DNA of 64,000 nt. Origin: Physcia stellaris (lineage: Eukaryota; Ascomycota; Lecanoromycetes; Caliciales; Physciaceae). This document shows, one piece after another, positions 29,031 to 64,000 of this stretch. The stretch is from assembly GCA_018902385.1 (NCBI GenBank), contig JABSSW010000002.1, positions 992,001 to 1,056,000 of the forward strand, in the 5' to 3' direction. The notes beneath the pieces were generated by a model. The model worked only from the letters and a program-made list of their open reading frames with translations. It did not search any database and was not told the origin of the DNA. How positions within the stretch are numbered: position 1 is the first letter of the stretch; each line of letters opens with the position of its first letter. The translations under genes and the position numbers were made by a program.

Positions 29031-29663
29031 TAGCGATGTTTAAGTTTGTTGAGGTCAAGTGCTTTCTCTGTTTGGATTTCAGGGTTGCCTCCATTCGCCA
29101 CCCATCGTTCTCGAATATTTGGGACGGGGATGATGTTTCAGGAGATCTGCCTTTTAGAATATATCTAGCGCCCGCAGATGGGAAGATAAGTCTCATTGTA
29201 TCCTGTTTGAGACGGATTTTGTTCAGGAAGAGCGACGTACAGATCAGCCATCTGATTCAACGATTCGCAATAAATCTCGTTCATCATCGAAGATTTTTGC
29301 TCTCGTCGAACAATGACTGTTGACAAAAACGAACACGATGTCGCTAAATGTTGACATATCTTAGCGAAATTCGTGAATCGTGAAAATCATGTGACGATAA
29401 TGTCGAATTTTGACTTAACAACGAATTTAGATGTTGACACATTATTTTTGACGTTTGAAATATCAAACAATATTGAAATCGCATCGATACAAAATAATAT
29501 CATTAAAAATGACGATTGTTTTTTTATAAATATTCAATAATTTTTTTAAATCGCGACGACATTAATCGTTGTGACATTGTGTAAAATTTTTTTTTTCAAA
29601 AATTTAATTTACAAACATCAATTAATTAAAATTAAAATTAAAATTATTTATATTTATTATTTA
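29031..29663. other. Border between normal and hypermutated DNA
   Basis: Composition is normal to about 29,320 and then becomes AT-rich within a few tens of bases. Beyond the border C is almost always followed by A or G. No gene seen. Confidence 0.75.
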
Positions 29664-29747
29664 TGTTGAAAATACAATTTTCGCAAATATGTTGCAATCA
29701 GATTTCAATTGATATAATTTGACGAAAACAAAATTAATGTTTTTTTG
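29664..29747 (+). repeat. Host element 5' LTR, left part
   Basis: Matches the first 84 bp of the family A LTR, as at 43841. It ends in TTTTG, the target duplicated by the nested element. Confidence 0.75.
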
Positions 29748-29945
29748 TATTGAAAGAATCATGGATGACTATCATTCTATTGCTCTGAATCTCGTTATTC
29801 TGTAACATACATGCAGGATGGGAGCACAAGAAGTGTGCGGGTGTCAAGGCATTAGTCTCAACAAGGACGCACTAGTTTTGCTTTCGTCAGGTTATATCAA
29901 TTGGATCCTGACTGCAGCACATTCGCGGAGGCTGTATTTTCAACA
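29748..29945 (-). repeat. 3' LTR of the minus-strand element (unmutated)
   Basis: 198 bp, TGTTGAAAATACAG to CAATA read on the minus strand. GC-rich and free of hypermutation; it serves as a reference for the altered copies at 33117-33314 and 43841-44038. Confidence 0.88.
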
Positions 29946-30009
29946 CTCCTTCACAGCAACCGCTTGTGCTTTCTGCCCTGTATTCTAACGAGCTCAGCCT
30001 GGAGCTTCC

Positions 30010-31345
30010 GTGCAAGCTTCCCCAGCGATGAGTTCTGGAGCTCCCCCAGAGCGAACTCCCCCAGCGATGTGGCTCCCCCAGCGATACATTGCCTGGAGCT
30101 TCCGAGCAAGCTCCCCCGATGACGTAGATCCTGAAGAGCTAGGCCATACACCGATGCGAAGGCTGCAGAATCGAACGAATCGAGGTCCGATGACCTATTG
30201 GCTTCAGATATGACGTAAGGCCGAATTGTAAGGCGTGCGACCGAGCATCTGAAGGATTGCGACGTTCTGGGTTTCTCCATGAGGTAAAGCATCGATGTGG
30301 GATCCGGTACCTAGAATTGGATGGAAGATACACCATGGAGCAAGTACCAATTGCCTGAGTAGTGCGATATTGACGAGAGTGCGGGTCACACCATGATCTG
30401 GTAGCATCATTGTGTCTCAGGATTCTCAGGCACTTCTTGCGGCATCAATGGTCGAATACCCATGCGATTTGGCTGTAGGAAGTCCATAAGGTATGCCAAT
30501 GCGATGCCAAAAGCTGGAGATGGTCGAGAAATCGATAAGGAAGGTAATGCATCGAATGCGGGCAGGCTTCTGCGGGCATACACCGATGCAAAGAGTGCAG
30601 ATTCGAGCTTTTCTGACCTGACTAAGACCTGCCAGAGAATCAGGTCGATTAGTATGCGAAAAGGTCAGATATCTCCAGTCCTTGATCGAGTTCTTGTCCT
30701 TCTTGACCGAGTTCCTGCTCTGCAAGGCCGAGTATGTAATGGCTGCATAGTACGCTCCCCCGAAGCGGTACTATTTGGCATCAAGCCTCTGTTGTAATAG
30801 ACTCAATACGCTCCCCCGAAGCGGTATTGACGTGACTCCTAGCAATGACTGTATAGTACGCTCCCCGAAGCGATACTATCTAGTCTGTTCGTCCCCTTCT
30901 AACATCTGTACAGTACGACAGTACGTTCCTTCGAGACTGTACTGTAACGACTGTACGTCTATGCTGGCGACTGTACGCTCCCTCGAGCTGTACTGTCACT
31001 CTCTCCCCCTCGTATTTATCGGGCGACTGAAGCCTCAAGGGTAGTAGGGAAAAGAGGCGATTAATCAGTCGTGTTAGATCAAGACGAAGCCACAACAGAG
31101 GTAAGTCCCTACTCATTAGTGAAACAATAAAACAAAGCATACAACAACTTGTAAAGCTCCCCCAGGCCGAAAATTGGGCGAGAGGGGCGGGACATCGAAT
31201 CCATTAAAACAACAACAACTTTTATGCTCCCCCAGGCCACGGCCGATCAACGGTTAACTGGGAGGGGGGGGCGGGCAAAACAAACAAACAACATGCTCTA
31301 ACTCCCCCGAAGTAGTGACCCCGAGGAGGTCAATACTCCCCCAAA
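30010..31345. repeat. Cluster of CTCCCCC motifs and small palindromes in the element
   Basis: About a dozen copies of [GA]CTCCCC(C) occur, many followed by GAAG or AGCG. Between 30,745 and 30,995 they sit in five spaced hairpins of the form TAGTACGCT...AGCGGTACTA, each 25-30 bp. The mutated plus-strand copy near 35,370-35,500 preserves the same layout. This is a non-coding 3' region of the element. Confidence 0.65.
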
Positions 31346-31560
31346 GCAGGGTGGAGAGGAGCGAAACGCCAATAACGCGTCCCCATGGGTATCTCATTGC
31401 TCCCAACTCTTGAGGCACTTGGCGTGGCCCAACCGGTAGGCCAATAGGTGGCGGAACGCCCTTGGCAATGCCTGCAAACAGGAGGTAGACGCGAGAATGC
31501 CGAGAAAGAGGGGCGCATCGAAGCAAATCGAGAAGGAAAGGAGGTAGGTGAGGCCGAGGG

Positions 31561-32946
31561 TCATCGCGAGATCGAAAACTGGCGCGGAACGCTTTCGCGG
31601 GCATGAGTTGATGCAAATGCTTCGGATTCGGCCGATTTGGAAGCAGGTGAGGTTATCGCATGGAAGTATGACGTAATGCGGCTTTGTATGGGGCCACATT
31701 TGCTTGCGGGATTGCATTTGCCAGGGCCGCGCGGAGGAAACGGGCTCATTCGGTGCCGTTGCAGGCCAAATGGACTCGGCTTCCCAGCGAACATGTGGAA
31801 CAGGTCGTCCACGGTAAGATAAGGCCTCGATGGTGTAGGTGCCCGAGGCGGAGCAGGCGGGCAAGCAACGCTTGCATTCTCCGTGGGTTTGCGCACCGAT
31901 TTGGGTGTCGCAATCGGGAGACGAGAGGGCTTGGGTGCAACGATCGGCCGTGAGGCGATTTCTGCCCAAGATATCTGTTTTCTTGGTGTTTCAACCGACA
32001 AGGATTCTGAAGGTGTTTCGGAAGGAGTAACTAGTGACTCGGCTACTAGTTTCGGCGACGTAGGAGGTGACGAGGTTACCGATTCAGGTGGCGTAGGGGG
32101 TGAAACAATTGATTGCGATTTCGGCTTCTTCGCATGTCGAGTACGGATATGCTCGTGAAGCTTGATGTTGCTATCGAATTTGACCTTGCAACGTCTGCAC
32201 GTATATTCTTCGGTCCGTTTCTTGATCAGGCGAGCTTCTTTCTGTTGTTTCAACAACTTCTTCGTTTTCTGTTTGATTTTGCTCTTCATCTGCAACTCGT
32301 GCTTTCGCAAATGATAAGTTTTCTGCGTCTTCTTGATTTGCACGTATCAATTGCATCTTAAAGTTTTGACGTTCTCATTCAGATGCATGTTGTAAAAAAT
32401 CTTGAGATTTTGCGTCATGAAATGATTTTCAGAAACGTGATCGCAAAAAGCAAACGAAAAAAACAAAAAATCGAATGTCGTGACGAATTCGAACGTGATC
32501 GCAGAAATAAAAAATGAAATCACATGTTCAACAGATTGTTGAACGAACGTCGATTTCGATAATACGTTTTCTGAACGCTCGCGTACAATTTCTGATTCGA
32601 ACATCGAAAAAAACAAAAATTTTGATGACGAATGAATAAATTCGACTATTCGTGACGATGACGCAGAAAATAAAAAAAAAAACGCAATCTTCGAATTTTT
32701 GCGTACAATTTCTGATACAAGATTCGAAAAAGTTGATAATTTTGATGAAAATGACATGATCGTTAAATCGAATATAAATGTTGAAATTGTCAATCTGACT
32801 AAGTGATAAATAGACAAATTCGCGAAAAATTCGTAAAGTGAATAGATAAACGAATTCGCGAAATAAATAAATAGATAAATAAATGTTATCGATGTAATTG
32901 AAAACGTACTGAATGTACTGTGTATCAAGATATTGAATATTGTCAA
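31561..32946 (-). CDS. C2H2 zinc-finger protein of the family A LTR element
   Basis: The frame runs 461 codons from 32946 to 31561, with one in-frame TGA (32344-32346) at the edge of the mutated part and probably once TGG. A C2H2 finger with ideal spacing (C-x2-C-x12-H-x4-H) occurs in CRRCKVKFDS...HEHIRTRH after a lysine-rich helix. It is followed by a proline/serine/threonine-rich linker, an ISWAEIASRP motif and a YLTVDDLFHMFAGKPSPF motif. I recall such proteins near repeats in Helotiales genomes. It could be a gag-like RNA-binding protein or a captured gene. The N-terminal half lies in mutated DNA and reads S/F/I-rich, so its original sequence is lost. Confidence 0.7.
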
Positions 32947-33116
32947 TACAATTGAATCGATTTCTGATTTGACAAGATTGAATGTTTCGAAAATTAATTA
33001 TTGTTGAAATATTGCAAATCGATTGTTGTATTGTTCGACGACTAAATATTACGTGCGTTTATGCTGTAATTGATTTTGATAATATAACGAAAATTGCTAA
33101 TTCGATTTTCATAATT

Positions 33117-33314
33117 TATTGAAAGAATCATGAATGATTATCATTTTATTGTTTTGAATTTCGTTATTCTGTAACATACATGCAAAATGAAAACACAAAA
33201 AGTGTGCGAATGTCAAAACATTAATTTCAACAAGAACGTATTAGTTTTGTTTTCGTCAAATTATAAAAATTGAATTCTGATTGCAACACATTCGCGAAAA
33301 CTGTATTTTCAACA
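33117..33314 (-). repeat. 5' LTR of the minus-strand element (mutated)
   Basis: 198 bp, same length and ends as 29748-29945. About 31 transitions separate the two; by hand count 17 are CpT, 13 CpC, 1 CpA and 0 CpG. Confidence 0.85.
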
Positions 33315-33319
33315 TTTTG

Positions 33320-33427
33320 TTGAAATTAATGTTTTAACATTCGCATACTTTTTGTGTTCGCATTTTTGTACGTAATTTCGATAATATTGCATGCAATGCA
33401 ATAATAATCATTCACATTCGTTCAATA
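33320..33427 (+). repeat. Host element 5' LTR, right part
   Basis: Resumes the family A LTR after the nested insertion (TTGAAATTAATG onwards) and ends at CAATA. The last 70 bp diverge from the 3' LTR and are similar, inverted, to 60826-60900. Confidence 0.65.
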
Positions 33428-33786
33428 AATTATGAAAATCGAATTAACAATTTATCGTTATATTTAATATCAATTACAACATGTCAAAAAACGTCGAACA
33501 ATAATAATTAATCGTTAAACAATACAGCAAAATTTGCAATATTAACAACAATAATCAATTTCATTGAAAATATTCAGTTTAGTCAAATCAAAACGATTTA
33601 ATTGCATTGAATAATATTCAATATCTTGATACACACGATCAATATATTCAATATTTTCAATTACGTCGATAACATTTATTTATTTATTTATTTACGAATT
33701 TTTCGCGAATATTTTACGAATTTGTTTATTTATCGATTTTATTTTAAAATATCGAATTTTTTTGCGAATTTTATCATTCAGTCAAA

Positions 33787-34944
33787 ATGACGACATTCAT
33801 TTTCGTATTTGATTTTATATTTTTTTCGTTTGTTTTTTGTGATTATGTATTTGAAAATCATTCAATGACGCAAAATTTGAAAACGTTGTATAACATGCAT
33901 TTGATTGAAAATGTTAAAACTTTGCGATACAATTGATTCATTCAAATCAAAAAAACACAAAAAACGTATCATTTGCGTAAACACGAATTGCAAATGAAAA
34001 GCAAAATCAAACAAAAAACGAAAAAATTGATGAAACAACAAGAAAAAATTCGTTTAATCAAGAAACGAATTGAAAAATATATTTGTCGACGTTGCAAAAA
34101 CAACACGAAATTCGACAACAACATCAAATTTCACGAACATATTCGTATTCGACACGTAAAGAAATCGAAATCAACGTTTGTTTAACAATTTGTTGAATTT
34201 GTTGTTTTATTTGTTTTCGAATCGATAATTTTTTCATTTTTTGTTTCGTTATTTCGATCGATCATTTTTTCATTTTTTTCGTCATCGAAATTTTTATTTT
34301 TTTCGATGTTTATATCAAAAATTGTACGCGAACGTTTAGAAATCGTATCATTTATTTCGTCGATTGAAACATCAAAAAAATCGATATTTTGAACAAAAAT
34401 AACATTACGTTTTATCATTGCATCGAAATTTTTTCGTTTTTCGATTGCGACATTCAAATTGATATGCAAATTTTTGAAAAATACAAACGTTATTTGTTCG
34501 TTTATTTTTTTTCGTATTTTTATTTCGAAATTTTATTTCATTGTGAACGATTTGTATCATATATTTGTTGAAAAATCGAATTTATTTGATTTGCAACGAC
34601 ATCAAATGCGTTTGTTTTTTTCGAAAATTTATAACAAATACAATTTTCAAAACAATTGTGATTTTATACAAACGCGCATTACGTCATATTTCAATGCAAT
34701 AATTTTATTTGTTTTCAAAACGATTAAATTCGAAACATTTTCAACAACATACGTTTCGATAAAATATTCGATTCGCACATCATTTTCGCGAACTTTTCGA
34801 TTTTTTTTTCGATGCGTTTTTTTTTCGACATTTTTACGTTTTTTTTTGTTTGCAAATATTGTCAAAAACGTTTCGTTATTTATTGATTTATCGATTGAAT
34901 CATGCGAATTGTTTCAAAAATTGAAAACAATGAAATATTCATGA
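33787..34944 (+). pseudogene. Hypermutated copy of the C2H2 zinc-finger gene
   Basis: The plus-strand counterpart of 31561-32946. The stretch RKHELQMKSKIKQKTKKLMK and a finger CRRCKNN...HEHIRIRH are still readable at 33973-34185, and LQRHQM with TRITSYFNAI near 34580-34710. The TGA before the conserved part recurs at the same site. Later stops and indels break it. Arginine and proline codons have been lost towards lysine, isoleucine, serine and phenylalanine, as CpY-to-TpY change predicts. Confidence 0.8.
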
Positions 34945-35770
34945 AACAACGTTATTGAAATTTCGATTTTTTTCGTTTTATTTTGAGAAAATATTGATTT
35001 TTTCTCGAAAAAGTCATTATTTTGAAAAAGTTAAAACATGTTGTTTGTTTGTTTGTTTTGTTCGTTCATTTTTTCTTATTAATCGTTGATCGATTTGAAA
35101 AAATTAAAAGTTGTTGTTGTTGTTTTAATGAATTCGATGTTTCATTTTTTTCGTTCGATCGATCAAAAAAAATTAAATTTGTTATATGTTTTGTTTGTTT
35201 TATTTCATTATGATAAAAATTTATTTTTGTTATAATTTCGTTTTGATTTAACACGATTGATTTACGATATCGTTTCGTTTTTTACTATTTTTGAAATTTT
35301 AATCGTTCGATAAATACAAAAAGAAAAAAACGAATACAATCGTTAAAATGAACGAACAACAAATTAAATAATACAATTTCGAAAAAACATATTATACAAT
35401 CATGCAATATCGTTTCGAAAAACGTATTGTATGAAATCATCACATATTCGATGAAATCACATAATATCGTTTCGAAAAAACGTATTATGCAATCATTACA
35501 TTTCGATTTTGTAAACTAGAAATTCGTTCAAGAAAAAAACAAAAATTCGATCAAGAAAAAAACAAAAACTCGATCAAAAAAAACAAATAATGTTGAAAAT
35601 ATTTGATTTTTTCGCATATTAATCGATTTGATTCTTTGACAAATTTTAATTCAATCAAAAAAATTCGATTTTGCATTCATTGCATCGATACATTTTTTTT
35701 ATCGATTTTTAGATTATTTTTTGTTTGTTTCACATTATTGACATATTTTGTGAATTTTTTACAATCAAAT

Positions 35771-35987
35771 TGTGACGAGCGTACATCGAATTCAACATTT
35801 GACAGAATTAACATCGAGCTAACATCGTTATCTTATCACATCGGATGTTAGGACCGAAATTCGACTTGACGCATTCAAGAAATCAAATCTTCTACATATG
35901 TCTTTGCAAACTTCATGTATTTGCTTTTCATTTCGATATTTTCGTGTAATTATGTAGTAATACTATATCTCTGCATAGCATTTCACA
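35771..35987 (+). repeat. Gypsy 5' LTR
   Basis: 217 bp, TGTGACGAGC to TTTCACA. Differs from the 3' LTR at about 18 sites. All fit CpT or CpC transitions, some in one LTR and some in the other, so both copies were hit separately. Confidence 0.93.
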
Positions 35988-36516
35988 TTATATCGAAATC
36001 AATTTCTTTTTTATGCTCGTTCATGATACGCGAGCATTCAAATAAACAAAACTTTTTACAGTTAAATTCAGTGAACGAATAAAAGCATAATAGACTCAAT
36101 CTGATCTTGATCATTCAACGAGAACAACGAAACATAATAGACTCGTTGTGAATTGAAAAAAACGAAACATAATAGATTCGTTTGCTTTGCCTTAAAGAAC
36201 GCTCAAAACAGACGAATTCACGCGATAATCTCGATTCACAATACAACAAATTTTCTTTTTTATCATTTTTGACGAAACATTCGTGCTTGAAAATCAAAAA
36301 ATTATCAAATCAAATTATCAGAAAACACATCAACAAACAAACATTTTTATTCAACATTCATTTGCTTCATCATAAACAAACATTTAAAAACTTCACTCAA
36401 CATCACATCGAATCTGTCATTTTGAGTGAAATTCAATCATCAAGATTTATTTAAATCATTGTTTTGTTCATTTTTTCTTTTTCTTTTCAACAATTATTCG
36501 ATCTCAGTTCACAGTC

Positions 36517-38175: not shown

Positions 38176-40863
38176 TTGTCTTCGAATGATAGAAAAATCA
38201 TGATTCATGACTTAATTGATATCGATGTTTCTGAATACGCTTTCATTAATGAAGAAATTGCGCAAAGAATATGTCATAAATTAAAATTAATTTCAATTTC
38301 TCTATCTCGATTTAAAAAAGTTCTTAATTTCGAAGAGACGAAAATCAAATTTATTACTCATCAAATATTGTTCAAAATGACAATACAAAATCATTCAAAA
38401 CTTTTCGTTTCATTGTTCATCATCAAAATAGAACAACATTCGCTGATTTTAAAAAAATCTTGAATGAACAAACATGAAATGATTTTCAATATGATCAACG
38501 ACGAATGCTATTTCATTTCGAATCATTGTGATCACGTTGAAATTTTCTTTTTGCTATCACGTTCGTCTATATTTCAGAAATTATTTAATTCGAACAAGCA
38601 ATCGAATAGAACGTTTTATTTGCTTTTTTCTGAGCGATTTTTAACGTCGTCTTCGTCGACAAACGTTCAGAAATATCAAATACTGCAAAGACGATCAATC
38701 TCGACATCTTTTCGAGTAATTTCTTCTCGCTCTACTGTGAAAGACTCGAAGAAGAACGAACAATCAATAAAAGAATTTTTGAACTCAAACTTCAAATATG
38801 TCATTGAAAAAATAGACAAAAAATATTCACCGAATAGATCGTCCAAAGAGAAACGAAGAACGAAAATCATACGTGAAATTCAAAAATCGAATCTAATTAA
38901 TGTTTCGATAAAAAAATCTGACATTTTCAAGAAATCTGCACGTCGATCTAGTCGACGATCTAAAATCACGATTTCGAGAATTGAAAATGACGAACAAAAT
39001 CTCGATTTTGATATATCATTGAACGTGACGTTTATCGACGCGACGACTTTTCAATCTTTAACAAAATTTAAAAAAAAAAAAGAAAATCAAAATTTTCTCG
39101 TTGACTATGAAGAAATTAAACGAAATTATTGACAACGTCAAAAAAAAATTGATCAAAATAAAAATTGACTCTGATTTGAATTTCAAAAAATTCTTAAAAT
39201 CATGAAAACAATCGTCGGAAAATTGAAACGTAAAATCTTTGAATTTCTTAAACGTTTCGAAAATGTATTCAATTCGAAAGAGACAAACAAACTATTTTCT
39301 CATAAATTTTACGATCACAAAATCGAGTTGATCGAAAATTCGAATCAACTGTCTCGAAACCGAATTTATTTCTTATCGCTCAAGAAACTCGAAGCTTTTC
39401 AAAAATATCTACACGATAATTTTCAAAAAAAATTTATCAATTCAAACAAGACGTTTTATGTCTCGTCTATTTTATTCGTCGTCAAGTCGAATGAACAATT
39501 TCGTCTGTACGTGAATTATCGAAAGCTGAACGTCATAATCAAACGTAATAATTATTTTATCTCGTTGATCGAAAAGACGCTTGTTAAAATTATCGATTGT
39601 AAATTCTTGTTCAAGTTGAATATTATATCGATTTTCAATAAATTCCGAATGAATTCACAAAGCGAAAATTTTATTATCTTCATATGTTCGCTAAACATTT
39701 ACAAATATCATGTATTGTTTTTCGATTTTATCAATGACTCGATCAATTGACAACACTACATGAACGACTTGTTGTTTGAATATATTAATCATTTCTGTCA
39801 AATGTATTTGAATGATATTTTCATTTACAACAAGATTCGAAAACAACATGAACGACATTTCATTCAAGTTTTTCAAAAACTGAAAGAAACTGATCTTCAA
39901 ATCGATATCAAGAAATGCGAGTTCTTTCAGACGAAAATCTCATTTCTAAAAGTCATATTATCGACAGAAAATTTACGCATGAATTTCAAAAAAATGCAAA
40001 ACATCGTCAATTGAATTCGTTCAACATGCATCAAGAAAATGCAAACGTTTGTGAATTTTTGCAATTTCTATCGACGTTTCATCAAAACGTTTTCGAAATT
40101 CGTCAAATTTTTAACTCGAATGATCAAAAAGAAGATTGATTTCGAATGAATCGATTTCGCTAACGAAACATTCGAAGTTCTGAAAAAACAAATAATCGAA
40201 ATTTCAATTTTTCGACATTACGATCGCAATCGTAAGATTATTTTGAAAATCGATTTCTCAAATTGATGCTTAGATGAAATTTTATTCCAATACGACGACG
40301 ACGATGTTTTTCATTCGATGATTTTTTTCAACAAAAAAATGATTTTTGCCGAATGCAATTACGAAATATATGACAAAAAATTTCTGATCATTATTCGATG
40401 TCTGAAACATTGAAGATTCGAGCTCGAAAATATTGACGAATCAGTCGAAATTTACATCGATCACAAAGATTTGAAAATTTTTATGACAAACAAGAAATTC
40501 ACTTCTCGTCAAATACGCTGAATCGAGATTTTAGCGAATTACAACATCAAAATTCAATATCAATTCGAAATCAAAAACGTCAAAGCGAATGTTTTGATTA
40601 AAATGTTTAAATTTCGTCTCGTCGAAGACGACGAACGTGAACTCTATAGAAAGCAAATTTTGTTTTCACTTTTTCGATTGCAATTATGTTCGATTGACGC
40701 TCAAAACGATTTATACGAACGCGTCATGCAAATCAATCGAAAGAATGAAAACTGTATTAGTCATCGTCAGATTTTGATCGATGAGCAGATCATCAACGAA
40801 GAAGTAAATTTGCAAAATTGCTTCGATCGAGACGAAGTTCTCTTTAAAAACGAGAATTTATGA
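38176..40863 (+). pseudogene. Gypsy pol relic: protease, reverse transcriptase, RNase H
   Basis: A single frame of 896 codons has eleven in-frame stops (38461, 39130, 39166, 39172, 39748, 40012, 40147, 40264, 40411, 40519, 40861). All are TGA, none TAA or TAG. Most fall where Gypsy proteins have tryptophan, for example the W of GPASWQHYMN at 39748 and of RHWRPELEG at 40411. The degraded protease active site is near 38210 (LIDIDVSEYAF). Reverse transcriptase shows LYVNYRKLN and QMYLNDIFIY, where the catalytic YLDD is now YLND. RNase H includes EIYIDHKDLKIFM. No frameshift occurs in this part. Confidence 0.9.
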
Positions 40864-43154: not shown

Positions 43155-43371
43155 TGTGACGAGCGTACATCGAATTCAACATTTGACAAAATTAACATCG
43201 AATTAACATCGTTATTTTATCACATCGAATGTTAGAATCGAGATTCGACTTGACGCATTCAAGAAATCAAATTTTCTACATATGTCTTTGCAGGTCTCAT
43301 GTATTTGCTTCTCATTTCGATATTTTCGTGTAATTATGTAATAGTATTATATCTCTGCATAGCATCTCACA
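43155..43371 (+). repeat. Gypsy 3' LTR
   Basis: 217 bp, TGTGACGAGC to TCTCACA, followed by CAAAT. See the 5' LTR for the comparison. Confidence 0.93.
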
Positions 43372-43840: not shown

Positions 43841-44038
43841 TGTTGAAAATACAATTTTTGCAAATATGTTGCAATCAATATTCAATTGATATAATTTGAC
43901 GAAAACAAAATTAATAGTTTTTTTGTTGAAATTAATATTTTAACATTCGCACATTTTTTGTGTTCGCATTTCATATATGTTACAAAAATAACGAAATTTA
44001 AAACAATAAAATAATAATTATTTATAATTTTTTCAATA
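43841..44038 (+). repeat. Host family A element 3' LTR (mutated)
   Basis: 198 bp, TGTTGAAAATACA to CAATA. It follows mutated internal sequence that matches the reverse of 29946-30400. Confidence 0.8.
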
Positions 44039-50522: not shown

Positions 50523-50701
50523 TGTTACGAGCATGTCTGAAATCTCGATTGAAAGCTTATTTTATCAGCGAGAGTTCATATCGAAACTAGTGAAAACTTG
50601 ACACACACTTTTACTTCTGACATTCGATCTTCATGTAGATATTTGCTTTTTAGATCAAATATTCTCGTTATGCTATCTGTTTCCTAGGCATGCGTCTTAC
50701 A
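50523..50701 (+). repeat. 5' LTR of the TRIM-like element (unmutated)
   Basis: 179 bp, TGTTACGAGCATG to GTCTTACA. Serves as a reference for the mutated right LTR. Confidence 0.92.
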
Positions 50702-51159
50702 TTATATTTGATCTTCATCGTGACGAGCGATGTAAACTCCACACTCGTTGCGACGATCAACGAGTAAAAAGAAACAAGATCGTTGTCAATTCGTGACGAT
50801 TTCACCTCCAGCACGAAATCCAATTCGTGACGGTCGCACACCTTCAGCACGAAACCTCCCTATCAACTGCAGTGACGATGATTCACTGTCTACAGCACAG
50901 CGATCTCTCGCTCTGAGTTCTGCGAGACTAACTGACACTCGTCAAACTCTCTGTCTCGAGTAGATTGCTCGTCGAAATACGCGAGTAAGTGAAATAAGAC
51001 CGCCAGAGTGTGAAGTCCTCTTAGAGGAAGACCACGGAGCATGACGTCTTCGTGAATTGAATGAAGTTTACATAGAGCATCTTCAAATCAACGAAACGAA
51101 AGTTCTCTCGAGAAAGACCACGAAGCAACAGAACGAACCTCCGTGAGTGAAGCAACAGG

Positions 51160-51360
51160 ACGAATTTTCACGAAACGACGAAGTCCTGCCTTTGCAGGCG
51201 GTGAATGCACCTCACTTCCATTATGCGCATCGTGGGCCAGCGAGAATGGCCGTGAATCTGCGTTAATGGAGAAGTTCTTCCTTTGAGAGCGGTGATTGCA
51301 CCCTATTTCCACTTGACGTATCGTGAGTCTGCGAGAATGACCGTGGGCCAGCGATAATGG
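51160..51360 (+). repeat. Internal ~90-bp direct repeat of the TRIM-like element
   Basis: Two degenerate copies start at GAAGTCCTGCCTTTG (~51180) and GAAGTTCTTCCTTTG (~51271), and share GCGGTGA, TGCACC, TTCCA, CGTGGGCCAGCGA and GCGAGAATG. A motif AGTGAGTCCGCTACAACGGC also recurs at ~51687 and ~51758. Confidence 0.6.
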
Positions 51361-52407
51361 CAGTCAATAGTCGACCTCCTTGTTCGTCGAGATCAGTCGA
51401 TATCCAGTCAATAGACGATCTCTCTGCTCCCCCGAGCCAGTCAGCCCACCCACCAAATGGCCTCTACAATAATCATCTCCTTGAAGCGTTGGGACACCGC
51501 TTGTTAAAGAGGGAAATAGAAGTCACACACACACCAAACCACCTACCTCAAACCAACAAACAACCACCCAAAACCAACCCCAAAATTTTCGATTTCTAGG
51601 CCTGTTACACCCTCAGCATGGCCGAGAGATCCACGCTCCGCTCCGCTCCGCCCCTGCCCCAGCGGTCTGCCTGCTTCAACGGCACCCAGTGAGTCCGCTA
51701 CAACGGCTAGTGAGTCTGCTTCAATGACGTCTTACGAACGAGCCCGTACATCGGCCTCAGTGAGTCCGCTACAACGGCATCAAAAGCGCATGCGTTCGAT
51801 TCTTTACATCTCCGCAGTCAACACCAATGGGAGGTGGACCTATTACACACGATACGGGAGCAATGGCATGGATAGTTGGAGAACACGAGTCGATTGGGCC
51901 TGCTACCCAGTCAAATCAGCTCGCCTTCTCCACAGCCCTTTGCCGCCGCCAATACGTCAATACCCTGCCAACCGATCCTCTGCCCAGAACCTGCAGCCAA
52001 TCAGGACGCGCCGATTAATAAGGACTCGAAAAGCCCAAATCCAAGAAGTTTGAAACAGCATACGCTCGCGGAACCGATATCGCTCTGCTGCTTTTGCTTC
52101 TGCTCGGTCCTGAGACATCGATCGTTTCATCATACTAATCTGCAGATATCTTCGCGATCAAGATTCTCAACAAGATTCTCAACAAGATTCTCATTCTCGT
52201 GACTCTATATATTTTCTGTTTTCGCACTTCTTTTTCTGCTTTCGCATTTATTTTTTCACATTTGTCGCATCTGCTTTGAAACTTTCTGCTCGAACGATGA
52301 TCAGACTGATATCTGAATCACAATCAACGAATTTCTTCGCAACGTCGATCGATAAAAGAAATGATATATTCGCTTCGAGACGAAGTTTGAAAAAGACGAA
52401 AAAATAA

Positions 52408-52586
52408 TGTTACGAACATGTTTGAAATTTCGATTGAAAGTTTATTTTATCAGCGAAAATTCATATCGAAACTAATGAAAACTTGACACACACTTTTATT
52501 TTTGACATTCGATTTTCATGTAGATATTTGTTTTTTAAATCAAATATTCTCGTTATGTTATCTGTTTTCTAGACATGCGTTTTACA
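52408..52586 (+). repeat. 3' LTR of the TRIM-like element (mutated)
   Basis: 179 bp and collinear with 50523-50701 without indels. It differs at 16 sites, all transitions: 14 CpT and 2 CpC by hand count, 0 CpA, 0 CpG. Confidence 0.92.
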
Positions 52587-55552
52587 ACAATTTATTTAAC
52601 GATAAATTTTTTTTGTATCGTTTCGATATCGTCGTTTTCGAAACATTTTTCGAACAAACACAAATCAATTTTCGTTGAAAATTGCGTCGACGTTTCGATG
52701 TCGACAATTTCGTTGCGCATTTCAAAACGTTAAAAAATTTGAAAAACGATTTGAATTTGTTGTATATTTCATTTTATTTTCAACGTGTAATGAACGATTT
52801 AAAAATATTTATCGACGAACACAAATCGTATAAAATCATAAATTTTCGTTTAAAAATCGATTTCAATAATCGAAATTGAAATTACAATATTTACGTTTTT
52901 TTTTACATGAAATTTTCGAAATTTCGTCATTTGAAAAATGCAATTCAAAAAATTTGAATAAATTAAATTGTATTATTTGTGATTTGCGCAAACGTGTTGA
53001 TCAATGTTCGAACATATCATTTTTTCAATTTTAAAATCGTCAAAATTCAAACGCATAATAAAAAAAAATTCACATGTACAATGTTGATTATTTTATAAAC
53101 AATTTTCGATTTATTTTCGTCGACAATTTTATCGTTTTTGAATTCAAATTGTCATTTTAATCAACGAATTTGCGAAATTCAAAAATGCGTGTTAATGATT
53201 TTTGAATGAAATTAAAAATTGTATTTTCAACGATCAATTTTAAAAAAAAACGCGAACGATTTTCATTATTCATTTGAAATAACGTTTTCGTATTTTCGAC
53301 GAATTCATGAACGAAATTTGAATTGATTTCGAAATAAAATATATTTTTTGTTTGTATCACGTCGATTTCGTTGTCAAAAACATCACGTTATTGTGAAAAA
53401 CATCGTGTTTCGAACATTGAAAAACGTTTTTTTACGACAAAATTAACGTCGTTCGTCGAATTCGCAACGCGATTTATTTATTTTTATTGATTTGTGATGT
53501 CGAATTTTGTTTCGTCGAAATGACATTCATTAACGTTTTTCGAACGAACGATGAACAAACGTTTCACAAAATTTACGTTATAATTCGAAATTATTGATTT
53601 ATTTTCGTTCGAAATGTCAAGTTTTTCGTCAACACATATTTCGAAATTTTGTTTTTTGTCGACGAAAAATTCGATCGATGACATATCGTTAATCGTCGAA
53701 ATAATTTGATTTTTGAAAACGTTTATAACAAATTCAACGATAATCAATCGATATCGTTCAAATTCAAAATTTATCAATTCAAAACGTAACGAACAATCAA
53801 ATATCGTATCGACATTTCATTGATTAACGCGCACAATTTTTTTATACGACGTTAATCGAAATTGTCAATAATTTACGCAAAAATGTCGTTTACGTTTGTC
53901 AATTTTTCAAAATTGAAATTTGTTGCATAATTTCGTCGAAATTAATTTTTACTCATTATAAATTGTTAACGATTCGAAAATTCGAACGTCATATTTTTTG
54001 TTTGTGAAATTTTTTCGCAAATTTTTCGTTATCGTTCATATTGAATTTTGTTTAAAAAAAAATCGACATTTTTATTACGATTACGTTCAATCGTTATTTT
54101 TTATTTATCGAAATTATGATCATTCAATGTTACAATAATTTTAATGATTTGAAATTCGTTTTCGTTGACGAATAACGACGATACAATTTCATAATCAACG
54201 TTTTTTCGAATTTTTCAATTTATCGTGAACGAAATTTTGTTTGTCACGATAAACGAATTGTAACAAAATATCGTTAAACGACGTCGTTGTTCGATAATCA
54301 CATTTATTTACGATCGATTGAAATTTTGATTTGTCGAATGTCAAAATCGTTCGACGACGCGAATTCAATTATAAAAAATACATTCAAAAATACGATTATT
54401 TTTTTTGTTCGTTTATTTTATTATTTGAAAATCGAATTTTTTGTTTGTTTTCGATTTTCGTTTTGTTTTTCGTTTGATTTTCGTTGTCGATAATATGCAA
54501 AATCGTTTCAAAAATTGTCGTGACATCGTTGCGATTATGATCAAACAAAACAACACATTCAAATTGTTTCGCGATCGAATAAAAGTTTTTATTTTCGATT
54601 ATAACGACAAAAACGATTTAATCAATCACAAACGCGTTTAAAAAATTATAATAATTGAAATCGAATTGATTGTTCAATTTTATATTTAAAATATTTGAAA
54701 CATTTTCAAAACACGAATTACGAAACATATCAAAAATTTCGTCAAACGACAAAAACAAAATCGTCGTTTCATGTTTCGATTGTCGAAAAAAAAATTGCAA
54801 AATTTCATGATTTTATTTATGTTTTTGTCGTCAAATTGTTCGATAATATCAAATTTAAAATTGTTTTTGAACGATTATTTAAAAAATACGATTCGAACAA
54901 TAACAAAATCGACGTTTTTGAAAAATATTACGTTAATGACAAATAAATCGATCGTTTTCGAATTTTTTTCGAATAAAACGATTTTTTTCGTTACAAAAAA
55001 CGCATTTGAAACAAAATTCGATTTCGTCAATTTTTTGAATCGATTACATTATATCGTTTTCATTTTAAAATTTTTTGTCGACGTCACATTTCAACAAATT
55101 TTTGTCGTCGTCGTTTATCAAAAATTTTTTTGTATTTCATTTTTCGATTGCGATTATTTGTTTATCGAATTGAAATTCAACAAAAACAATAATATTCAAC
55201 GTGATCGAAATCGTCGATTAAATCGAATTGAAACGAACGAATTTTGATTTATTGTTTGTTTTTTTTGACAACAATCGCGTATCGAAATCGCGTTATAATA
55301 ATATTTCGATTTTCGTTCGCGATACAAAAAATAACGCAAAAATTCAACATCATATTCGCACAAAACAATTGATCACGATCATTTTTACGAATGCATTTAA
55401 TCGTTTATTTTCGAAATTCAACAAATTTACATTTGTAATCAATTTTACGATATCGACGCGTTCAAAAATTTCAAATGTCGTTGTGACAAAAACAAAAAAA
55501 CAAAATCGAACGAAATCAATAATCGATCGAAAATCTCGACGAACGAAAACGA

Positions 55553-55595
<43 letters not shown>

Positions 55596-56233
55596 GTATT
55601 TCGTAATTTGATAATTTAAAATCACGATAACGATTTTTTAAATTTTTGTTTAATTTATTATCGCAATTTTTTTATATTTTATATAAATATATTTGTTTGC
55701 AAACAACATATTCATTAAATTTTGATATTTCGTTTTCAAACAATATACGACGTGATTTTTCATATATGCGTTTTTCAAAATTTTTATAAAAAACAAAAAA
55801 ATGAAAATTTTTTTCGATTGTCAAAATGACATTGAATTTTGAACGTCGAAAAAATTTCATTTGTCAATATTTTCATTTTTTCAAATGTCGAAATTAATTT
55901 GATAAAATTTTTCGACGTAATTTTTGAATTCAAAATTAAATCAATCATTTTTTTAATCGAATTAAATTTCGATAAATCGTTTATCAACAAAATTATATAT
56001 ATATTTCGTTTTTGAATTGCGTTCAAATTGTCGTCGATAATTTACGCGAAATTTGATTTATTCGTATAATCAACATTTCGATACGAAACGTTTTATTAAA
56101 TTGATTTATTAACAATTGTTTTTTTGACGATATCACATCATTTTATTTTCAATTTTAACATTTGATTAAACGCGTTATTTAAAATTAATTAAATCGATTT
56201 GAAAATTTACATCGTTTTTTACATTTTATCAAA
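52587..56233. other. Saturated AT-rich block
   Basis: No intact gene. Open frames (for example 54771-55247 plus) have no recognisable family. In 54,001-54,240 all 28 C residues precede A or G, and AG and GG are absent. Confidence 0.6.
55554..55594 (+). repeat. Poly(A) run of 41
   Basis: Uninterrupted A from 55554 to 55594. Possibly the scar of a poly(A) insertion, or a purine run produced by G-to-A change; its exact length is uncertain in any assembly. Confidence 0.9.
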
Positions 56234-57930
56234 ATGAATAACGAATTCGAATTAAAATTACGAAACGAACAGACGAAAAATTTAGAAATTTTCAATTCGA
56301 TTTGTTTGTTTTGAATCAATCAAATCGTTAATTTGATTATTCGTTTTGATCGACGTCAAAATAAAATCAATCAAATCGATTGTTTTCGTTCGTTTGAACG
56401 ATTTTTTATCAAAATTTGAAATAACAAATGATAAACATGCAAATTTGATATTTGTAACGTTCGATAAAAAAATTTAATGTTCAAAAAATGTTTAAAATGA
56501 TATAACAAATGAATGAATTGTTATTCAATTGCGAAAATTCAATTTCATACAAATTCAAACGAAAATTCGATTTTTCAGTTTGCGTTTATTCAAAATTTTC
56601 AATCAATAACAATCATGATTCATTTGTTATCATTTGCATATGATATTTGTTTGATAACATGAAATGTGTAACGTTCGATAAGAAAAATTCAATTTCGCAA
56701 AAATGAAAATGATATGACAATTGCGTAAAAAGTGATTCAATCGAAAAAAATTCATACAAATTTTTAAACATTTAACAACAAAAATTGCGCGTTTGTTTTT
56801 AATGAATTTACAATTCAACGATCATCATTCAAAATGTAAATTATCGTCGAAAATTCGTTGTTTGACGTTTTGAACGAACACAATTTAACGTCGTAAAAAT
56901 CAAATTCGTATAATCAATGAGTAAATAATCAATGCGATGTGAAATTTTGATTTCGTTCAAAATAACGATAATCGATTTTTTTAATTTGTTCATTTTAACA
57001 TATCGTTCAACAATCATTTCAAATGAAATGATCAAATAATCGTTATCGAAATTTTTTGTAATATTCGAAAAAGAAATTTCAACGTCGTCGACACGAAATT
57101 GATTTAACGATTATGTGCAAAATCATTCAATTGCGAAAATTTATATTATTCAGAAATATGAATATTCAACAACAAAATTTGTTTTCAATCAAATCACGTT
57201 TAAAAATCGTTCGTTTTGATTCAATCGTTTCGATTTTATTTTATCGAATATTAACGTTGAATGTTTTATTTCATTTTTAAATCATTTGTTTTTGATAATC
57301 AAGACGATTCAAATTGTTAACAATCGCATTCGTTTTAATTTCGTCGAACAACGTTTTCGAAAACAATGAAATGAAATTACGAAATTTGCAAACAACATCG
57401 TTAATTCGAAATTCGATAATCGTTTTCAAAATATTAAAATCAAATTGTTTCAAATTGCGTTTATACATTGTTTTAAACATGACGTTTTTGAAATTATATT
57501 TTTATTTATTGTTTCGAATTCGTTGTTAAACATCGAATTAATTGCAATGCGTTTCAATTTTCTGACGATAAATTTGTTAGAGTGATTCAATGATAATGAC
57601 GAATATTCATTTTTGCAACAATTAACGCGATTAAACATTTTTCATTAATCGAAAAAAATTTTTTTCGCATTAACGTTTGTAATATTTTTCAAACACGATC
57701 AATTTCATTTTTTTTATCAATCATTTTTTGATTTGTTTTTATTTTTTCAAATATTTGTTGTTTTTGACAAATATTTTGTTTCGCATAATAATCATTTTTG
57801 AAAAATTTCAATCACGAATTTCACAATAAAATTTGTCGTTTTTGAAATAAACAATATGTCGTTCAATCAAATAAAACGATGAAAAAAAAAAAAACAACGA
57901 AAAAAATTTCAACATATCAAAAATATAAAA
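56234..57930 (+). repeat. 1.7-kb direct repeat, copy 2
   Basis: Matches 47568-49232 in the same orientation, 8.67 kb further right, with scattered substitutions and small indels. Starts ATGAATAACGAATTCG. Confidence 0.75.
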
Positions 57931-58069
57931 TCATTATTTTTTATGCGTTTGTTTATCAGAACTCATAAACGAAATTTTGTATGTAAAGATTAAAGTTTTG
58001 ATTTTCGAACAAAAAATTCATAAACGAAATTTGAGAAAAATTCATAAACAAAACATTCACGACATGTAT

Positions 58070-58870
58070 TTGTTATGTAAAATCAAATATCGTTAACGTT
58101 TGACGAAAAAAAAATTCAACGATATAAAAATCAAAATTGTGTGACAAATGCGCATCGAAATATTCAATTGCGAAAAATTGATTGCATACAAATTGATAAA
58201 ATCGATTTTCGAAATTAAAATTTTAATTTTCGTTCAATAAATTCATAAACGAAACAGAAAATTTCATAAACGAACATTCAAAAAATTTATAAACAAAACA
58301 TTCACAATATCAATTGAATATATAAAATATGATATTTGTAACGTCGAACGAAAACGATTCAACGATGCAAAAATCAAAATGATATAACAAATACGCATAA
58401 AATTATTCAATTGCGAAAATTTGATTGCATACATAAAATTTTGACATTCAAATTTAATTCGAATTTATGACACAATTCAACAATCATCATTAAATCAAAA
58501 CGCAAATAATTGATATATGTGATTTGATTTTTATAACGTTCAACGAAAAAAATTCAACGATGCAACAATTTAATTGTTGTGACAAAAACGCATTAAATTA
58601 TACAATTGCAAAATTTCGATTGCACACAAACGCAAAAAAATGATATTGAATGCAAAATTCGATCGAATTATCGTTTAATTATTATTTCAATGACAATTTT
58701 TTGATATTCATACAATCAAATTTGATATTCGAAACGTTTAACAAAAAAATTCAACGATGCAAAAACATGTTTCGTGTAACATTCGTGCAATCAGATATTC
58801 AATTGCGAACATTTGACTATATATAAATTTATGAATATTTGACATTCGAATTTGATCGTTCAATCGAATC
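58070..58870 (+). repeat. Tandem ~200-bp repeats, at least four copies
   Basis: Copies near 58,090, 58,335, 58,532 and 58,729 share AACGTT-GACGAAAAAAATTCAACGATG, ACAAATGCGCAT and ATTCAATTGCGAAAATTTGATTGC. They are related to the subrepeats inside the 1.7-kb direct repeats. Confidence 0.7.
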
Positions 58871-58892
58871 GTATTTCGTTTGATTATGAAAT

Positions 58893-60062
58893 TCGTAAAC
58901 GACGCGATAAATTCATAAATGAAATTTCAAAAATTCATAAATCAACGATTCATTCAATCGATTTTTATTTTTTGAATTTTATTGTAATTTTCGTTTGACG
59001 TTATCGAACGCACGATTCAGAAATTTCTATTCGTGTTGATGTCACATGCGATAAATCGAAAATTATCGTTCAATCATATAAATGTAATGATAAATTTATA
59101 AATCAACGATTTATCAAGTCGATTTTTTATTTTTTGAATTTTAATTGTAATTTTCGTTCGATGTTATCGAACGCATTATTCAAAAATTTTTACATACGTT
59201 GACGCAATTGATATTGATAATATAATCATATTGAATATTACATTCGAAAATTATGTTCAAACATCGCATCGTATTTCGTCTAATTATAAAATTTATAAAT
59301 CAACGATTCATCGAATCGATTTTTTATTTTTGAATTTTTATTTTCATTTTCATCAAATGTTATCGAACGCATTATTTTGATTGTTTTATTTGCGTTTGAC
59401 ATTAAACATTGATAACATAATCATAACGAACAACACATTCGAAAATCATGTTAAACGTCGAATTTTATTTCGTTCAATCACGAAATTCGTAAACGACGCG
59501 ATAAATTTATAAATGAAATTTCAAATTCATAAATCAACGATTCATCGAATCGATTTTTTATTTTTTAAATTTTTATTGTAATTTTCGTTTGACGTTATCG
59601 AACGCACAATTTAAAAATTTTTATTTGTGTTGACGTCATATGCGATAAATTGATAATTATTTTTTAATTATATAAATGAAATGATAAATTCATAAATTAA
59701 CGATTTATCAAATCGATTTTTATTTTTGAATTTTAATTGTAATTTTCGTTCGATGTTATCGAACGCATCATTCAGAAATTTTTATTTGTGTTGACGTCAC
59801 ATGCAATGAATTAACAATTATCGTTCAAACATGAAATTCATAAATGAAATTTCAAATTTATAAATCAACGATTTATCGAATCAATTTTTATTTTTGAATT
59901 TTTATTGTAATTTTCGTTTGACGTTATTCAACGCACGATTCAGATTGTTTTATTTGTGTTAACGCATTAAACATTGATAACATAATCATGACGAACATTA
60001 CATTCGAAAATCATGTCAAACGTCGAATTGTATTTCGTTCAATTTTGAAATTCGTAAACGAC
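58893..60062 (+). repeat. Satellite-like array with higher-order period ~575 bp
   Basis: Six monomers of 160-235 bp each contain CAACGATTCATCGAATCG-like and GTTATCGAACGCA blocks (the latter at about 59001, 59164, 59360, 59595, 59756, 59924). The block GAAATTCGTAAACGACGCG marks every third monomer (about 58893, 59478, 60045), so the unit is three monomers, present twice. Confidence 0.7.
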
Positions 60063-63000
60063 GTTATCATGAATCGTGTTTGAATAAACGTATTATTGAT
60101 TAATTAAACGAAAACAATAAATTTGCAAAAACAAATAAATACAAAATGTTGAAATTGCAAACAATATACGACGTCAAATTTCAAATCACGTTAATTTCGA
60201 CGTAAAATTAAAACATAATTCGTTGTTCGATTATATCATATTAATTATTTATTTGTCAAATTTATTTGTTAAACATTTGTCAAATTTATTTGTCAAACAT
60301 GTTCGTAACATTATTTTTTTTTTGCGAACGTCGTTTCGACGATTCGTCGTTGATTCGAAACGAAAACGTTGTCGATTGTCTTGAATGAATTCAAAATTCG
60401 AAATTTTCACGATCATCATTTTCTGATTTTTTCAATATGTCGTATCAATTCACAATTCAATAAAATCGAACAACAATTTCTGAAAATGTTTTTGACACGA
60501 TTCAATTTTTTATGCGACGTAAATTTTGACTATAAACAACGTCGAAACGATAATAATGAAATTTGAAATTGAAAAAAAAAATTCTGAAACGAACGAATGA
60601 AATCAAGATGAATTCAAATTTAATTGAAATTTTCAAATTTTAATCGAACGTAATTTCAATGAATGTCAAAACGACGATTTTTTTTCGAAAACGACGACGA
60701 TTCGCAAATGAATTTTGATCATCGATTTGAAAAACGAAAAAAATAATTTTGAATAATTTCGAATTTGCGACGATGAAATAATTTCGATAATAATCATTTA
60801 TCACGTCACGAACATTATCGAATTCATCGTTATTATTGAACGAATGTGACTGATCGTCATTGCATTACATGCAATACTATCGAAATTACGTACAAAAATA
60901 AATACAATTTGATTGCGCAAATGTTTTTAATAATAATCGTTTTTGATTGTAAAAATGTAAGCATTGCGTGATTAGAATGTGCGAATAATAATATGAATTG
61001 CTATGATAAATGCTAGACACATAGTAAAACTAATTGCTAAAAAAAAACAAAAAAGAAATTCGTGAAATTTCGAGTATATAAGCGCGAGATGCGACAGTTA
61101 AATTCACAACGTTTTAACGTTCGCTTGATCGACTTCGTTTCATTACAATTGTTTTTTTGAATGATCGATTTTTCGCGTCAGTTATCAATGTTTTTATAGC
61201 ATATCAGAAATGTATCGCAACAACGTTGTTTTGTAAATAATTTTGTGTTTTCGACGTGTAGTCTTGAAACATTGTAATTCAATAAATAAAAATAGCAATA
61301 ACAATGTAATGCAATTTCAAATATCGCGTTCGTGTTGTGAAGTCGAGTCGAAATGAATCGCGTCGTGTGTTGATAAATGTTTATTTCAACTTTTCAATTC
61401 ATTTTTTGAATTTTTTTTTCTTAGCATTTTTATTTCATAACATAATAAATATTTCATTTGATTTTTTTGTCTTTGCGATAACAACAATTATTGCGACAAT
61501 AATGTCAACATGATATATCGTTGTCTGTACAACTATCACATCGTTTTTGCAAATGATAATGTTGTCGCAATAATGTTTTAATGACGACGAAATTGAATTT
61601 TCAATTGTCGACAATGTAATACGTGTGTTAACAACGCAATAAATCATGACGTCGTCTTTTTTGTTTTTTACATTTCGCAAGTCGCTTTTTGCAATTTCTG
61701 TTGTAAGTGTACTGTTTATGATGTTGACGTTGCTGATTCAATGTTAAATTGATAAATTTTTTTCATTTGAACAATTGAATGAAAACACGACAATTCAAAT
61801 GTTTTTTTCGCGTGACAGTCGCGAACGCATGTTGTCAAAATCTAATAAACAAACACGCATAATTGTTTCGAATCAATGTTAATGTATAACAAAATCAATT
61901 CATTTTTGATGTCAACGTTGCGTTCGAAAATTTCGCACAAATTTTAAACACGTTTGCGAAATTTCGAAAAATAACAAGCGCGTCAAATGTCAATTTTGTA
62001 ACAAAAATTCGCATTATTGCGAAAAAAACATGACTTTTTCGCAATTTCAAGTTACTGTTCGCGTTTTTGTTGCTTAAGATAACGTTCAAAACAAATTGAA
62101 AACAATTTTGAAATTTTGAAAAGATAATAGCATGCAAATCTTTGCGTAACGTGATTAACATGATGCAAAAACAAATCGAAAAAATTCGTTGTTTTTTGTT
62201 TTGATCGCGTTTCGCAAGACTGTTGCAACAATTACATCAAAATCTGTCACAAAAACGATTTTTGCTCGTTGTTTTTTCGTTTTCGTTCGCTTTTGCGTTT
62301 GCTCGAAAGCAAATCAAAATTTTTTTTTGTTTCGTTTTGCTGATTTTGATTCTGATTTTGATTCGCTTCGCGTTGTTTTTTTTTTCGATTTTTTCGTTTT
62401 CGATTCGCTTGCGTTTGTTTTCGACTTCGTTTCGTTTGCGTCGCAAACAAATTCGTTTGTTGTCGCGTTTGTTTTTGCGCTTGCTTTCGCGCAACAAAAT
62501 CGCGTAATACATGATAAACAACGTTTCAATTAGACGCGACGACAATTAACATAACGCAATCGAAATCGATTTGATTGTTGTGATTTGAATTCTGATTGAT
62601 GAATTTATCGACGCGTTGACGTACATCTTCGTGTTTTTTTGAATTCATTAAATCGCATATTTGATGTTGATTTTGCTTGTTTCTGTGTTTGTTTGCGCTG
62701 AAATGTTGATGTTTGTTTGTTTTGTTATGACGTGTTGTTTTGTGATTTGTTTGTTGAAATTTACGAATTTCAATATATTTTTATAACATCGAAATGTATG
62801 CAAATTGCGCATGTAATCAAAAACAATTCGCAATATCATTTTATTGTTTGTGTTTTCGCGTCGCAATTATTGTTATTTTGTTTTTGAATCGTTCACGTTT
62901 TTTCAGCTTTAAAATTGACGTGTTTGTTTTTTTGTTGAAAGTTTTTCGCTCGATTTCGTTTTGAATTTGTCTGTTCTTCGACGTTTCGCAATTTTTCAAA

Positions 63001-63448
63001 TTTGCGTAATTCGCGCGCATTTTCGAATTTGACAATTGCGTTTTTTTCGCATTTTCGAAATGTTTCATTGATTTTCACGAATTCTCATATGACGATGAAT
63101 TTATTCATGCAATAAAATATTCAAATTGATTTTTTCTAATGCGCTTGTTTAGCATTTGCGATATTTTCACTTTTTTTCGTTTTTACTAATATTGATTGCG
63201 ATTTTGAATTTGCGTCGTCACGATTATATCAAGATTCGAATAAAAAAAAAAACATGAAACACAAAATGTATGAATTCATATTGTTTAAACAAATCAAACT
63301 CGTAAATTTGCGTATTTATTTTTTGACAATTTCAAAAAAATTCAACTGTTTATGATCAATTTTTTTTTGAAACGCAATGTGCGTATATTGATTTCACGCA
63401 ACAACATTTTTTTTTTCAAATTCAAAATTTTTCATTATATGATTTTCA
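60063..63448. other. AT-rich block with possible LTR remnant
   Basis: 60826-60900 is similar, inverted, to the end of the host 5' LTR (33360-33427), so an LTR remnant is likely here. 61.4-63.4 kb probably contains the tail of the minus-strand Gypsy element whose integrase lies at 63.4-63.9 kb; its frames are K/N/R-rich and unrecognisable. Confidence 0.4.
61075..61082 (+). promoter_or_regulatory. TATA-box-like sequence in the LTR remnant
   Basis: TATATAAG followed by GCGCGAGATGCGAC, less eroded than its surroundings. It may be an LTR promoter, but any AT-rich block yields such matches. Confidence 0.2.
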
Positions 63449-63900
63449 TTATAATATTTGACTTGTTGTTCGAAAATCACTTTTTACAATTTCATTAAGT
63501 GCGTTCGATTGTTTCGCAACGTTTTTGTTCTGTCTGTTGCAAATGCTGTTTTTTTTTTTTTGAAAATTGTTCACAAAATCGTCGTTTAATGTCGCAACGT
63601 ATTCGAACAAAAACTTTTGAAAAAGTTGATTAATGTTTGAATGTTTGTTATTATTGTAAACAAATTGTGTCATAAATAACAATTTTGATCAATTATTCTG
63701 TTTGAAATTGCAATACATACGCAAATAATGTTCGAACACAATATTTTGTTTTTTTGTTTGCTCATTTGTTTGTGAATGAAAAACAATGTTAAATTTACGT
63801 TTCGTTTTCAAATTTCAACACAAAATAAATCAGAAATTGTTTGTAAAAAAAAATTTTCGATTTGAAATAATGTTACGCATCATTTCATGACGACATACGA
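63449..63900 (-). pseudogene. Gypsy integrase relic at the right edge
   Basis: Minus-strand translation reads FNIVFHSQTNEQTKKQN, then EHYLRMYCNFKQNN-stop-SKLLF and MTQFVYNNNKHSN. This matches the Gypsy integrase pattern STAFHPQTDGQTERQN ... DWSELLPMAQFAYNN, with TGA at the tryptophan. The element continues beyond 64,000. It is a different lineage from the element at 35771, which has INKNYHSR at the equivalent place. Confidence 0.72.
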
Positions 63901-64000
63901 ATTTTCGTCATAGCAAATTCGCAAAATTTATCGCGTTTAACGTTTTTGTGATTGTTATGTACGTTGCGTATTTCGTCAATTTGTTTATCAATATTAATAT

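Follow-up and report, generated by a model that had tools for sequence, protein, structure and literature searches.

A RIP-like mutation process with an inverted 3'-neighbor preference in repeats of Physcia stellaris

Introduction

In canonical repeat-induced point mutation (RIP), described in Neurospora crassa and Leptosphaeria maculans and linked to RID and DIM-2, C:G pairs of repeated DNA are converted to T:A on both strands. Dead repeats become AT-rich blocks in which TpA/ApT is raised, genes stay GC-normal, and copies of the ribosomal DNA (rDNA) are mutated as well (PMC5555474). The preferred target is CpA, and a 2025 survey of 1,239 fungi reports that RIP-like defenses share this preference (PMC12543289); sources given by PMC number are represented here by parts of their texts. 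The DNA analyzed in this work, referred to as the window, is a stretch of 64,000 nucleotides from Physcia stellaris (contig JABSSW010000002.1, G000:C2:992001-1056000), whose genome comprises 43.97 Mb in 147 contigs. Its repeats share with canonical RIP the two-strand C:G to T:A changes, the AT-rich blocks and the GC-normal genes, and the genome holds a mutated rDNA copy and both RID- and DIM-2-type genes. Unlike in canonical RIP, CpC and CpT are targeted, CpA is nearly spared and TpA/ApT is lower in AT-rich DNA.

As in our case, CpT is among the top contexts in the RIP of Botrytis cinerea, Sclerotinia sclerotiorum and Magnaporthe oryzae (PMC4352252) and of Anisogramma anomala (PMC10998396); in these fungi, however, CpA is leading, co-dominant or secondary, and CpC goes unmentioned in the main texts. 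RIPCAL-based reports (PMC2621366, PMC7882544) contain some alignments with high or dominant CpT-to-TpT changes, described as dominant in the RIP-capable control fungi of one of them (PMC7882544), but they concern fungi with canonical RIP indices and, in the parts represented here, claim no sparing of CpA. In Monilinia, CpC-to-TpT double changes occur alongside those at CpA (PMC8959702). The dim2-dependent mitotic mutator of Zymoseptoria tritici resembles the present case in its sharp 3'-neighbor rule, its sparing of CpG and its targeting of repeats, but the rule is CpA (PMC8016269), whereas the repeat-directed C-to-T changes of Microbotryum and rust fungi target CpG (PMC4352252), the context least hit here. 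A CpC-led, CpA-sparing RIP is not reported in those parts of the open-access literature that were searched, which also span PMC5602860, PMC11969663, PMC12542154, PMC3017866, PMC7862722 and PMC3897900, with the Clutterbuck 2011 survey outside this set. A first-pass annotation of the window, made from the sequence alone, had known of no RIP with such a preference; within this literature the statement stands, CpT-heavy RIP together with CpA being published.

Results

The Ty3-type element of the window is bounded by a 5' long terminal repeat (LTR) at 35771-36000 and a 3' LTR at 43155-43388, both on the plus strand. A genome search with the 5' LTR yielded 40 or more scored matches from 305 candidates; of these, 30, from 21 contigs and including the two of the window, were fetched and compared. 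The count took in every site at which two or more copies have C, so that sites with T in all copies, or in all but one, are invisible to it. T was found in 56 of the 60 cells at CpC (2 sites) and in 666/926 at CpT (31 sites), as against 41/929 at CpA (31 sites) and 2/708 at CpG (24 sites); one further site, with a gapped neighbor, had T in 8/30. Permutation of the 3'-neighbor labels reached the observed share in 0/10000 trials. At C followed by a pyrimidine (CpY), the effect of the 5' neighbor is small (ACY 0.77, GCY 0.63, TCY 0.73; 5' C is not represented), that of the +2 base is near flat (0.70-0.77), and the two strands give 0.757 and 0.702. C:G to T:A transitions thus occur on both strands, in these copies as in the LTR pairs. 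CpA, which had been described as spared, is nearly but not wholly so.

A mutated, displaced rDNA copy at C41:41001-51000 (locus L037) could be compared with the Rfam consensus, a reference independent of the repeat alignments. It holds a 5.8S match with E <=0.001, and no further 5.8S match was found at this threshold (best 39 of 2644 candidates). Relative to the consensus, C has become T at 39/41 CpC, 29/51 CpT, 1/38 CpA and 0/34 CpG positions, that is, at 68/92 CpY versus 1/72 C followed by a purine (CpR; Fisher p 5e-24). Positions were counted where C and its 3' neighbor are both upper-case in the consensus, with 3, 2, 1 and 0 gap cells excluded, respectively. The span covers positions 1-452 and 635-725 of the large-subunit (LSU) model, most of 1-626 of the small-subunit (SSU) model and all of 5.8S; two variable blocks of the LSU and one of the SSU, short pieces beside long insertions and the remaining LSU and SSU were left out. 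The SSU match is ~4.3 kb long as compared with a model of 1831 positions and must therefore contain several insertions, perhaps introns. Eight 5S matches of 108-120 bp, located on six contigs, score 57-89 bits and lie above the cut-off (best 47 of 1658 candidates, scores only), which fits a sparing of short repeats. In the LTR copies and in the rDNA copy alike, CpY stands far above CpR, in agreement with the 3'-pyrimidine rule first proposed from the window, and in neither is CpA the main mutated context.

Base composition bears the same mark. From 32001 onward, the AT-rich 4-kb blocks of the window have dinucleotide odds of 0.00-0.17 for CpC, 0.05-0.62 for CpT, 1.06-1.34 for CpA and 2.19-4.59 for CpG, with CpC at 0.60 in the block that contains the second of the two GC-normal islands described below; in the blocks before 32001 all four lie at 0.83-1.14. 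Throughout 44-50 and 53-64 kb, each of the NCC trinucleotides accounts for 0.0% of C after rounding, and 84% of C is found in TCA, TCG, ACA and ACG. We divided the window and the fetched loci, many of them fetched as LTR-bearing, into 572 non-overlapping 500-bp bins: CpY accounts on average for ~0.50 of C at GC >=0.40 and for 0.01-0.08 at GC <0.28, CpC is lost first and CpT next as GC falls, and no bin with GC <0.34 has a CpY share >0.40. Twenty places of 5 kb each, spaced over 16 contigs, yielded 6/200 AT-rich bins (GC <0.36), with pooled odds of 0.11 for CpC and 2.81 for CpG. CpY is not depleted in the genic DNA of the window or in the GC-normal binned samples; this result and that on CpA are based on binned samples together with a single family of LTRs and a single rDNA copy. 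Standard RIP indices had been predicted to be blind to such DNA, and indeed 0/232 bins with GC <0.32 pass either pair of canonical thresholds, TpA/ApT being ~0.45 in AT-rich versus 0.64-0.72 in GC-normal bins.

The counts that the first-pass annotation had made within the window are reproduced. The 28 C of 54001-54240 are 11 CpA and 17 CpG, with CpT and CpC absent on both strands. The comparison of 50523-50701 with 52408-52586 gives 16 transitions (14 CpT, 2 CpC) and no transversion, and that of 29748-29945 with 33117-33314 gives 31 transitions, namely 17 CpT, 7 CpC, 1 CpA and 6 mixed, whose 3' neighbor differs between the two copies (C or T), together with 2 transversions. For the two LTRs of the Ty3-type element, all differences had been ascribed to CpY; this holds for 18 of 19 transitions, the remaining one being CpA beside 2 transversions, and for 18/18 once the pair is cut to the limits of the 30-copy alignment. 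In the five LTR pairs whose spacing assigns both members to one element, CpY accounts for 18/18, 11/15, 9/11, 15/17 and 5/10 of the transitions (total 58/71). The likely reason why the old, poorly aligned pairs (47/55 kb, 33/44 kb) lack a CpY excess is that both copies have lost nearly all of their CpY.

The genic part of the window (1-29200; GC mostly 0.42-0.54) served as unmutated control, with a GC of ~0.50 and four C contexts about equal, and 1-kb GC is 0.22-0.35 over most of 29.3-64 kb. Mutation had been claimed for 29320-64000; most of this range is mutated, but not uniformly, since it includes GC-normal islands at 29748-32346 and ~50.8-52.1 kb, where the CpY share is mostly 0.35-0.63 (down to ~0.27 toward the right-hand edge of the first). 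An AT-rich mutated border tract (29300-29747) separates the genic DNA from the first island: the CpY share is 0.56 at 29101 and 0.00 at 29501, and a repeat match of 60% identity starts inside the tract, at 29307. The first island is an unmutated, GC-normal copy of a multi-copy repeat and contains a zinc-finger-like frame on the minus strand (31564-32346). It continues as mutated DNA at 32347-33314, which holds 33117-33314, the mutated partner of 29748-29945, and is followed by an inverted, mutated copy of 31012-32346 on the minus strand (33901-35317). The region 31012-35317 is a large inverted repeat with one arm partly unmutated and the other mutated.

Within the Ty3-type element, an open piece on the plus strand (39178-39747) resembles Ty3 reverse transcriptase (PDB 4ol8, E 5.7e-6); Pfam gave no match for any of five open pieces of the element, and the PDB search matched this one of them. 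Beyond the element lie a heavily mutated block at 44001-50000 (odds at 44-48 kb: CpC 0.00, CpT 0.05, CpG 4.59), the less mutated copy of an LTR-like repeat (50493-50701, plus strand), the second GC-normal island (50750-52100), the more mutated copy of the LTR-like repeat (52381-52586, plus strand) and an AT-rich, heavily mutated block (52601-64000). The second island, which sits between these 200-bp LTR-like repeats, has a longest frame of 177 aa. Tandem repeats were seen in the genic DNA (26502-26673, a perfect 17-bp unit in ~10 copies) and in the mutated DNA (59503-59964, a 168-bp unit in 2.8 copies).

The repeat of 29748-32346 is present at no fewer than 40 places in the genome (>=40). Its frame, proline-rich with a C2H2-like finger (by eye; the Pfam match is below the cut-off), measures 261 aa in the window copy and 328-342 aa in loci L061 and L062. 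These two loci are unmutated copies with a GC of 0.52, and L061 is flanked by mutated DNA on both sides. Among the three copies, transitions affect 18-23% of CpC, 13-15% of CpT, 10-13% of CpG and 4-10% of CpA. When the inverted arm 33901-35317 is aligned with its unmutated partner (102 transversions in 1288 columns), C has become T at 162/180 CpC and 113/143 CpT. A 5' C has a flat effect in a pooled comparison.

The PF00145 profile has four matches at three genes in the genome. One gene is of the DIM-2 type (PF00145 and PF25423, with BAH below the cut-off) and has an open frame of 1118 aa without a modeled start. The other two, RID-A (935-aa frame, two exons) and RID-B (513 aa, three exons), are 40% identical across 307 aa and are presumably RID-type, given the resemblance of their motifs. 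PCQ and IGN are retained in all three proteins, the latter as IGNAVPP in RID-A and RID-B, where the stretch from QRR/QNR to IGN appears by eye shorter than in the DIM-2 type. All three loci are GC-normal and unmutated (CpY share 0.50-0.51). The inspection of methyltransferase genes that the first-pass annotation had advised thus finds open frames in one DIM-2-type gene and two of the RID type, and a predicted RID/Masc1-type homolog with catalytic motifs is present. PF08210 (APOBEC_N), the one deaminase family searched, has no match in the genome.

Discussion

The repeats of P. stellaris bear the genuine and strong signature of a process that resembles RIP with its 3'-neighbor preference inverted. 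We consider it probable that this is a RIP-type repeat defense that acts on both strands and targets C before a pyrimidine (CpC > CpT >> CpA > CpG). As in RIP, GC-normal genic DNA is spared; the CpA preference and the canonical index values are lacking, and on account of the former we class the process apart from canonical RIP. As a variant of RIP with inverted preference it appears new, CpT-rich RIP with CpA being already known. C-to-T changes would hit repeated DNA at cytosines followed by a pyrimidine, with repetition itself as the presumed trigger and the time around the sexual cycle as the presumed period of activity. The modification of C may be due to a RID-type enzyme (RID-A or RID-B, perhaps with DIM-2) whose 3'-neighbor preference has switched. 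A trigger by repetition is favored by the 29.3-kb border, which lies within ~100 bp of the start of the repeat match, by the mutation of the displaced rDNA copy, by the scores of the short 5S matches, and by four window repeat queries (best 40 candidates each), for which second copies above 94% identity were limited to fragments <100 bp. The mutated sequences tested are all repeats or the rDNA copy, and some repeats escape mutation.

Several observations speak against such a repeat defense. In the five LTR pairs, 13/71 transitions are at CpR (12 CpA, 1 CpG), up to 5/10 in the worst pair, which consists of two heavily mutated copies with little CpY remaining. The inverted arm is also changed at 33/160 CpA and 41/188 CpG; part of this reflects ordinary divergence, and a slow mutation of CpR may account for another part. 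The GC-normal L061 and L062 persist at 88.5% and 85.5% identity to the window copy; a further match, of a 600-bp L062 piece to another place, reaches up to 93% and is known by identity and not by GC. A single element, 29748-33314, is partly mutated and partly untouched, and both islands (29748-32346, 50.75-52.1 kb) belong to multi-copy sequences. The persistence of unmutated copies would be explained by a high identity threshold, or by these copies being young or protected.

It is possible, though we think it unlikely, that the CpY changes stem from a heterochromatin-linked, DIM-2-dependent mutation that follows chromatin state rather than repetition and creeps into insertions from their edges. 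The island edges are indeed graded next to mutated DNA, GC-normal repeats within mutated blocks fit insertion into heterochromatin, the DIM-2-type gene has an open frame, a dim2-dependent mitotic mutator is published for Z. tritici (PMC8016269), and Neurospora DIM-2 methylation prefers CpT according to a review (PMC13297926). However, >98% of the dim2-linked C-to-T changes in Z. tritici affect CpA, and 5-methylcytosine is nearly absent from CT sites there (PMC8016269); P. stellaris shares with that mutator the open-frame gene but not the mutation at CpA. Also against it are the border at 29.3 kb, ~100 bp or less from where the repeat match starts, and L018, in which a mutated LTR lies ~170 bp from an unmutated flank.

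In the final sequence, C-to-T at CpY and G-to-A at RpG are identical, and the guanine of RpG could have been the damaged base, for instance as O6-alkylguanine, with cytosine deamination not involved. The O6-alkylguanine tumor signature SBS11 consists of C to T at CpC and CpT, a context that matches. Such damage is nonetheless very improbable, as it would have to target AT-rich repeats and spare genes, leaving adjoining GC-normal DNA untouched, in a genome with a RIP-type methyltransferase set. A repeat-directed mutator other than a cytosine deamination started by RID or DIM-2, such as an RpG-to-RpA one, which would produce precisely this CpC/CpT pattern, would mean that repeat-induced mutation had been invented a second time, independently; we see a slim chance of it. 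Editing of transposon DNA by an AID/APOBEC-like cytosine deaminase would also yield C-to-T on both strands. AID/APOBEC enzymes read the 5' base, but 5' A, G and T matter little in the LTR copies and PF08210, one family only, is without a match; we therefore set 5'-reading deaminases aside as hardly credible. UV-type damage was rejected because no C contexts remain more frequent in 44-50 and 53-64 kb than TpCpA and TpCpG, decay of methylated CpG because this context has the fewest changes in the 30 LTR copies, and a whole-genome property because C contexts are even in GC-normal bins. For an assembly, sequencing or compositional artefact no support was found, and with separate copies, GC-binned DNA and an rDNA copy read against an external reference all following the same rule, its probability is practically negligible.

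The targets being inverted, C before C or T, standard detection formulas miss the signature, and near-saturated mutation of repeats scores here as clean on the usual indices. If other genomes behave alike, RIP is undercounted. P. stellaris offers a natural contrast between CpA and CpY specificity with RID- and DIM-2-type genes in hand, and the residues that choose the 3' neighbor, together with the chemistry of RIP, therefore become testable.

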